NCBI RefSeq assembly: GCF_001579845.1
Contig: NZ_CP007440.1
Span: 1,864,001-1,928,000, forward strand
Length of the DNA stretch: 64,000 bases
Direction of reading: 5' to 3'
Source: Rhodoplanes sp. Z2-YC6860
GTDB lineage: Bacteria > Pseudomonadota > Alphaproteobacteria > Rhizobiales > Xanthobacteraceae
Below, one piece after another: positions 3,365 through 3,543 of this stretch (positions are counted from its first letter, which is position 1; every line of letters starts with the position of its first letter). A model generated the notes under the pieces. The model ran no database searches. It was not told where the DNA came from and saw only the letters and a program-made list of their open reading frames with translations. The position numbers and the translations under genes are program-made.

Positions 3365-3543
3365 CTTCACCCTTCCTTGCGCAACCGGGCTTCGCTTGCG
3401 GCCCTCGCGACTGTTCGGGTTCGATGGAACGGCGGACGGATGCCCGTGCTGAGGTCCGGGCTTCATAGCCCCAGGATGAGACGGTCTCCCGTCCGCCACC
3501 GCGCCGACAACTCTAGCCGACGAAGCGATTCGTGACTTACAAG
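3365..3543 (-). ncRNA. candidate IS110 bridge RNA, copy 1
   Basis: Read on the minus strand. A target-binding loop is closed by a 9-bp stem (3489-3497 with 3431-3439) and contains an inner hairpin GGGCT-ATGA-AGCCC (3458-3471). Its two single-stranded arms match the insertion site: plus-strand CAGGATGA at 3472-3479 equals the right side of the target, and CTGAGG at 3449-3454 is the complement of CCTCAG at 2411-2416. Further along the RNA, ACAGTCGC (plus-strand GCGACTGT, 3407-3414) is identical to the element end at 2416-2423, as a donor guide should be. A short CAAG, partly in the ribosome binding site (3375-3379), may be the other donor arm. Order (target loop, then donor loop) agrees with the published IS621 bridge RNA. 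The fold was made by eye; the exact ends are unknown. Confidence 0.72.

Follow-up and report, generated by a model that had tools for sequence, protein, structure and literature searches.

An IS110-group element of Rhodoplanes sp. Z2-YC6860 with a predicted IS621-type bridge RNA whose guides match its insertion site

Introduction

The insertion sequence IS621 of E. coli and its bridge RNA were described by Durrant 2024 (PMC11208160) and Hiraizumi 2024 (PMC11208158). The accounts in these two papers name the recombinase residues D105 and S241 and present a right donor guide of nine RNA bases that covers seven donor bases, with two flipped out. Some IS621 orthologues have longer right target guides (PMC11208160). 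In the same paper, covariation is reported in 5,511 target-RNA pairs and bridge RNAs are predicted in 85.7% of IS110 elements; as both were already known, the element presented here adds to a known system. IS110 elements that target REP sequences were reported by Tobes and Pareja 2006 (PMC1525189), earlier than the bridge RNA. In the open-licence literature, no title on bridge RNAs of the alphaproteobacterial group treated here was among the matches listed.

The window analysed in this study is a stretch of 64,000 nucleotides (C1:1864001-1928000) from the single-contig 8.19-Mb genome of Rhodoplanes sp. Z2-YC6860. It contains copies of two related elements, here called element 1 and element 2. 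Element 1 is almost certainly an IS110-group element whose left end would encode an IS621-type bridge RNA that guides insertion.

Results

Recombinase, borders and copies

The recombinase gene of element 1 (2432..3364, minus strand) is intact and encodes 310 aa. The protein matches the profiles PF01548, PF02371 and NF033542 ('IS110 family RNA-guided transposase') with 212.5 bits for the latter. When compared with solved structures, IS621 (8wt6) was the best match with E=5.7e-36, followed by ISCro4 (9t56) with E=1.4e-34. Aligned with the IS621 chain, the protein has D9, E53, D95, D98 and S234 at the DEDD and serine positions. As in the IS110 group, a DEDD RuvC domain is combined with a Transposase_20 domain that carries the catalytic serine, a long left end upstream of the gene holds the RNA and the right end is short, and the RNA has two internal loops, each composed of stem, left guide, hairpin and right guide. 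An RNA in a long right end, characteristic of the IS1111 group, was not found in element 1; its RNA lies in the left end and its right end measures 17 nt. These features support the assignment of element 1 as an intact IS110-group member of the bridge-RNA type, the left end of which would encode an IS621-type RNA.

Element 1 (2415..3543, minus strand; 1,129 bp with both CT cores) has five genomic copies. Four of them have the same 1,129-bp sequence, from which the fifth deviates at 4 positions. An alignment of the five copies with their differing flanks, which needs no model, places the borders at CT-TGTAA... on the left and ...ACAGTCG-CT on the right. The CT cores are thus located at 3542..3543 (left end) and 2415..2416 (right end) on the minus strand, in agreement with the AG core that the original prediction had seen at both borders. 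Core included, 179 nt lie upstream of the gene and 17 nt follow the stop codon. The host DNA next to the cores reads TCATC in the left target flank (3544..3548, minus strand) and GAGG in the right one (2411..2414, minus strand), the latter forming the foot of a REP-like palindrome. The same CT dinucleotide was found at both ends in two element families by the five-copy alignment of each. In other loci, the CT core belonged to the search motif and these therefore provide no independent test of the core.

With the PF01548 profile, eleven IS110-type genes were detected in the genome: five of element 1, five of element 2 and one unlike either. The copies of element 2 are all identical over 1,132 bp. 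The one in the window (copy 2; 37162..38293, minus strand) is situated at the site CGCC-CT-CACCC and encodes a recombinase 65% identical to that of element 1. Its bridge RNA was predicted at 38116-38273 on the minus strand with 139.3 bits in the covariance model. Compared with copy 1, the paired donor-guide bases are kept, while the target loop and the site differ. Given that the copies of each element are identical or nearly so, both elements have probably moved recently and were recently active. The eleventh gene (L011, G000:C1:7232164-7235586) is possibly of the IS1111 type and adjoins a stretch that resembles another transposase gene by eye.

Bridge RNA and its fold

The predicted body of the bridge RNA (3369..3523, minus strand) is a full-length match to covariance model R1 with 147.2 bits and E=2e-34, a score that holds by construction, since the model was built with the copy 1 sequence included. 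The original prediction is refined here in that the RNA is read on the minus strand. In this direction, the order is stem, left target guide, cap hairpin, right target guide and stem, followed by the donor guides around a hairpin. The target-loop stem consists of a 5' arm, GGCGGACGG (3489..3497), and a 3' arm, CCGTCCGCC (3431..3439), within an 11-pair helix that has two-sided changes at all 11 pairs among 60 RNAs. It encloses the left target guide UCUCAUC with the CU core (3473..3481), matching TCATC-CT, and the right target guide ACCUCAG (3449..3455), which pairs with CT-GAGG(T); both are placed by comparative co-variation. Between them, a cap hairpin GGGC-TATGAA-GCCC (3458..3471) has three conserved pairs that form in 100% of cells in the 60 RNAs. 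The donor part comprises the left donor guide ACAGUCGC (DNA ACAGTCGC; 3407..3414), which equals the terminus ACAGTCG-C(T), a hairpin region GGGC/GCCC (3385..3406) based on the consensus fold and compensatory analysis, and the right donor guide UUGCGCAAG (DNA TTGCGCAAG; 3376..3384), of which 7 of 9 nt pair discontiguously with CTTGTAA at 3537-3543. All of these parts are on the minus strand. The left guides carry top-strand letters and pair with the bottom strand; the right guides pair with the top strand.

Most parts of the RNA had been named correctly before. The enclosing stem and the inner hairpin were found where the original prediction had put them, as were CTGAGG at 3449-3454, the complement of CCTCAG in the site, and GCGACTGT at 3407-3414, a repeat of the element terminus (2416-2423). 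The letters CAGGATGA are likewise present at 3472-3479; the last of the eight matching letters is located past the core. The right donor guide at 3376-3384 had not been named. For comparison, the RNA region without its first 40 nt was shuffled 50,000 times by dinucleotides. TCATCCT occurred in 170 of the shuffles, CCTCAG in 2,305 and ACAGTCGC in 168; TCATCCT and CCTCAG in order and 10-60 nt apart were obtained in 2 of 50,000.

Relatives were collected for the comparative analysis. Named genome contigs yielded 80 loci (the best 80 of 151 relatives) and 391 same-family genomes yielded 30, with only five candidates per genome scored in the matches listed. Together with the eleven loci of the own genome, this gave 121 loci, 120 of which had a usable recombinase match. 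After removal of 4 duplicates of own copies, 116 remained; 92 with both end motifs were kept and 24 were dropped for a missing end motif, so that elements sharing these donor ends are over-represented. The kept loci correspond to 84 distinct places, eight being present in two collections, and include the 10 copies of the own genome.

For the fold, 63 distinct RNA stretches from the 92 loci were used; L058, L084 and L090 were left out and 60 were aligned. The RNAalifold consensus of these 60 RNAs has two internal loops. Pairs 127-168 and 128-167, which cross the donor loop, were removed from the consensus before compensatory changes were assessed. In the consensus fold, 97.6% of cells were paired compared to 85.8 in shuffled alignments, and a slide by one column reduced the value to 49-54%. 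Compensatory changes were present at 15 of the 23 pairs of the fold, and none of 500 shuffles reached any of the measures. The target-loop stem contributes most of this evidence; the helices of the donor loop hardly vary. Single-sequence folding of the GC-rich copy 1 RNA gave no gain over shuffles (z -0.07 and -0.30). The predicted two-loop structure is hence supported by comparative evidence.

In the own genome, the covariance model recovered ten full RNAs, one at each copy of elements 1 and 2, plus two weak opposite-strand matches at two of them; no orphan bridge RNA was seen there with E up to 1. No Rfam family reached its gathering score in the window, and the weak match at the RNA locus was on the other strand with E=0.64. 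In a model search of 100 genomes, most strong extra matches without a full recombinase gene were located at contig ends. In L159, recombinase similarity ends after residue 56, away from the contig end. Two further matches in G096 as well as weaker divergent ones, some without a recombinase match (L164), were also obtained. A divergent relative of the bridge RNA was detected at 22 places in a 3.9-Mb genome (G074:C1), with 34-36 bits in the places listed and a 39%-identical recombinase beside it in the three copies examined. The target loop of L090 (Azospirillum melinis) carries a 28-nt tandem duplication that results in two consecutive guide-hairpin-guide units; its relatives L047 and L056 have one unit each. 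The duplication could be a retargeting intermediate or simple decay.

Target guides and insertion sites

The guides were compared with their flanks in 52 guide pairs, grouped from 90 elements with enough left flank. For the right guide, identity with the flank at positions +1 to +5 was 98, 90, 98, 87 and 90%, compared to 65, 36, 37, 31 and 42% after shuffling. For the left guide, it was 22, 46, 51, 62, 69, 90 and 92% at positions -7 to -1 (shuffled: 25, 24, 26, 38, 31, 49 and 78%). The left guide is looser than the right one, with 46-69% flank identity at -6 to -3. In register, the signal was absent at -7 and at +6 to +8. The summed matches amounted to 223.8 on the left and 276.5 on the right, and the maxima of 2,000 shuffles were 169.0 and 178.0, respectively. 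The guide lengths are best counted as about 6 nt plus CT on the left and 5 nt plus AG on the right. Within this range, copy 1 has one mismatch on either side, at -6 (guide C, site G) and at +5 (the guide calls T, the site has C). At -7, its guide T faces a C in the site, and the relatives have no signal at this position.

An unbiased scan of every RNA column against 24 flank positions was carried out with 84 elements and 55 distinct RNAs, one copy each. The seven strongest pairs were RT+1 to +5 with RNA 93 to 89 (complementary) and LT-2 and LT-3 with RNA 68 and 67 (identical). LT-1, -5 and -4 ranked 10th, 12th and 24th amid off-diagonal pairs of z 4.2 to 6.2, which we take as echoes of relatedness and repetitive letters.

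Relatedness was addressed with a recombinase tree, built by a quick method from 84 of the 92 loci with a protein of at least 250 aa; 79 rows had complete flanks. This tree requires at least 27 changes of the right guide (79 elements). Path-disjoint pairs with different guides were chosen and the fit of each guide to its own flank was compared with that to the partner's flank. Right guides fitted their own flank better in 18 of 18 independent pairs with margins of 1 to 10 matches; three pairs inside the GAGG class won by only 1 or 2 matches. Left guides fitted their own flank better in 18 of 21 independent pairs, with 2 ties and 1 pair against. The original prediction had named an alignment of homologues as one of its checks, with target-loop arms that follow the insertion sites and a donor loop that stays fixed. 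Exactly this was observed, the donor loop being nearly fixed, and the co-variation of arms and sites in relatives supports the claim of a bridge RNA with a readable target.

Ten close loci outside the 92 were inspected by eye on the left side only, agreement at -6 to -1 being scored out of 6. It was 6 for L154, L168 and L178, 5 for L155 and 3 for both L169 and L176. L159 and L171 scored 6 and L172 and L179 scored 4, the last two having the guide in common with L100.

Donor guides and junction

The left donor ACAGTCG (2417..2423, minus strand) is the right terminus of the element and the right donor TGTAA (3537..3541, minus strand) is its left terminus, as determined by border alignment and the 92-locus comparison. 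The left donor guide tracks the terminus variants ACAGTCG, ACAGCCG, ACGGTCG and ACAGTTG in 90 of 92 loci, the misfits being L075 and L078. Across the 92 loci, for which the left-end motif was part of the selection, the right donor guide reads (T/A)T-NN-(G/A)CAAG against CTTGTA(A/T). RD+5 and its RNA partner are complementary in all 92 (71 A/T, 21 T/A) and, counted by distinct places, in 84 of 84 (63 A/T, 21 T/A). The donor guides thus match the element's own junction, the right one discontiguously, as in the IS110 group. Handshake guides of the IS110 group pair with position 7 of the other DNA. At these positions, RNA96 C faces LD-1 G in 88 of 92 loci; among the 90 loci with flank, RNA169 G faces C at LT-1 in 83 and T in 7, that is in 90 of 90 if G-T is counted. 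Since these positions are nearly invariant, they provide little evolutionary evidence.

The hexamer TTGACG (2430..2435, minus strand), which contains the recombinase stop codon, may serve as the -35 box of a circle-junction promoter. In 91 of 92 loci, the start of TTGA[C/T/A] lies 19 bp ahead of the core. The commonest sequences 17 bp further on are TAAGTC (26) and TAACTT (25), a weak fit to a -10 box.

Host sites and repeats

All five copies of element 1 are inserted at TCATC-CT-GAGG; by eye, each of them adjoins a REP-like palindrome at its outer foot. The own genome has 91 occurrences of TCATCCTGAGG compared to 0 for the reversed control. A TCGAAGGA-like inverted partner of the palindrome was found within 75 nt after 30 of 32 site occurrences (20 regions); when the letters of these stretches were shuffled, the rate was 0.6%. 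Element 2 is inserted at C(C/G)CC-CT-CACCC in each of its five copies, where CCCC-CT-CACCC is usual and CGCC is found in the window copy. The left guide of copy 2 mismatches its own sites at -4 in all five copies: the guide-perfect ACCCCTCACCC is present 4 times in the genome and the used form CCCCCTCACCC 32 times (reversed control 0). TCAYCCTGAGG was present in all 20 further genomes with 1 to 169 copies each (reversed: 0 to 2), including hosts in which the examined elements use other sites.

The assumption that all guides of the group address abundant host repeats proved only partly true: TCATCCTGAGG and CCCCCTCACCC are repeats, but some relatives address other kinds of site. GAYYGCCTCYGYCG, the site of Methylobacterium, Microvirga and Beijerinckia elements, was near the control in nine genomes (1-14 vs 2-12 reversed), with 6 vs 3 reversed in the sole host of such an element among them. 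ACACCCTCCCC was found 5 times in its own host and 0 to 3 times in the other eight genomes. In this host, L053, L058 and L080 each have one ACACCCTCCCC on the opposite strand, at a distance of about 90 nt upstream of the element. CCCCAKYCTCTCAAGAA, fitted to the joined sites of L047 and L056, had 0 occurrences in the nine genomes including the host of L047; as no uninterrupted copy was found, there is no sign of a repeat at the L047/L056 site. A position of every insertion at the foot of a perfect hairpin was also rejected, since the enrichment was only modest over plain letter shuffles: a stem of at least 6 was present on the right side of 22 of 75 insertions (8.0 shuffled) and on the left side of 18 of 75 (6.5 shuffled). 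By eye, such a placement is true of many GAGG and CTCTCCCC/CTCCCC sites.

At 57032-63697 of the window, as many as seven repeats were noticed, which are spaced by about 1 kb and roughly 61-78% alike; they may be paralogous solute-binding protein genes in a row. REP-like palindromes lie at 2263-2364 and 10776-10877 of the window and genome-wide, often as inverted pairs, and comprise at least two subfamilies, CCGTCATCCTGAGGtGC and CCTCATCCTGAGGaGC. The consensus sequences of the REP elements Br-REP1 and Br-REP2 of Bradyrhizobium, as given in PMC5082802, differ from the REP-like target of element 1.

Discussion

By analogy with its family, the recombinase would excise element 1 as a circle through the CT cores. 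Judging from the spacing, joining of the ends would set TTGAC 17 bp upstream of TAAGTC and might thereby drive the RNA, which the recombinase presumably binds as in IS621. The second loop (3376-3414) would read the element's own junction ACAGTCG-CT-TGTAA and the first loop (3449-3481) the host site TCATC-CT-GAGG; both readings are supported by comparative co-variation. Strand exchange at CT by the recombinase would then insert the element at the foot of the REP-like palindrome. The result of this step is visible in five copies and its chemistry is presumed.

Target specificity is provided by the protein alone in many insertion sequences. The recombinase of element 1 might likewise recognise its site unaided and the RNA arms might be a relic, such as host sequence acquired in a previous insertion. 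The loose match of the left guide would fit with this explanation, but a relic would hardly account for a better fit to the own flank in 18 of 18 right and 18 of 21 left independent pairs, on opposite strands and at fixed positions, nor for a signal that is lost in register at -7 and at +6 to +8. In addition, the homologue IS621 requires its RNA (PMC11208160), and recognition by the protein alone is considered very unlikely.

The location directly upstream of the start codon, with stems that could act in a leader, is what would be expected of a structured leader or regulatory RNA of the recombinase gene, which would match the flanks by chance. Chance matches are rare, though, with 2 in 50,000 shuffles for both target motifs; the matches persist across changes of the guide letters, and Rfam has no family that reaches the gathering score in the window, all of which makes a mere leader extremely improbable. 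Shared ancestry would explain the co-variation if related elements had kept the same guide and the same repeat by happenstance. Many relatives do have the CCTC guide and GAGG sites in common, and plain shuffles retain relatedness. However, path-disjoint tree pairs remove it and still gave the 18 of 18 and 18 of 21 results, and a right guide that changes at least 27 times on the tree is hardly compatible with ancestry as the only cause, an explanation to which we attach next to no weight. A bridge RNA that guides insertion is the reading adopted in the following.

In the relatives, the donor half has hardly changed and the target half has been rewritten, so that the lineages would own separate addresses. 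Tentatively, and with the balance slightly against it, the bridge RNA might be seen as an address label that can evolve on an otherwise constant chassis: in a mostly alphaproteobacterial set, the target half is rewritten and the donor half nearly frozen, and two co-resident elements are found at two different dispersed repeats. If new addresses come from copied target sequence or from loop exchange between co-resident elements, this would be a natural counterpart of laboratory reprogramming. The two elements of this genome, which share the paired donor-guide bases but not the target loop, constitute a natural loop-swap comparison. As guide and site are legible in dozens of relatives, the origin of new addresses becomes a testable question. 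Drawing only on natural sequences, the comparison also confirms bridge-RNA base pairing independently and with phylogenetic control, and the guide lengths (right 5 nt, left about 6 nt, each plus core) are directly legible in it.

The claimed likeness to IS621 of E. coli was borne out: the order of target loop before donor loop, the polarity with left guides on the bottom and right guides on the top strand, and the shared CT core agree with the scheme described for IS621 (PMC11208160, PMC11208158). The recombinases are homologous over their length and the RNA lies in the long left end in both. In both, the right donor guide pairs in two blocks (2+5) with two bases left unpaired, a G faces T at the corresponding position, the handshake positions agree and the target is of the REP type. 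In contrast, the target and donor letters differ. The right target guide of IS621, G77-G80, has 4 nt including the core (PMC11208160/PMC11208158), whereas that of element 1 has 7 nt including the core. The right flank of element 1 enters the palindrome; in IS621, the left target seems to lie inside the REP palindrome according to the sequences given in PMC11208160. ISCro4, the second best solved match, is similar as far as the recombinase is concerned, by which alone it was compared. In ISEc21, which is of the IS110 type and has a seekRNA, the target is likewise selected by a noncoding-region RNA, which is located upstream of the recombinase gene; IS1111 types differ by an RNA downstream of the gene and ends with subterminal inverted repeats (PMC11187229). 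ISPpu9, ISPpu10, ISPa11 and ISRm19 are also IS110-family elements with a fixed position in REP palindromes (PMC1525189). ISPpu9 and ISPpu10 share one host and hit the same REP position (PMC1525189), whereas copies 1 and 2 hit two different repeats.
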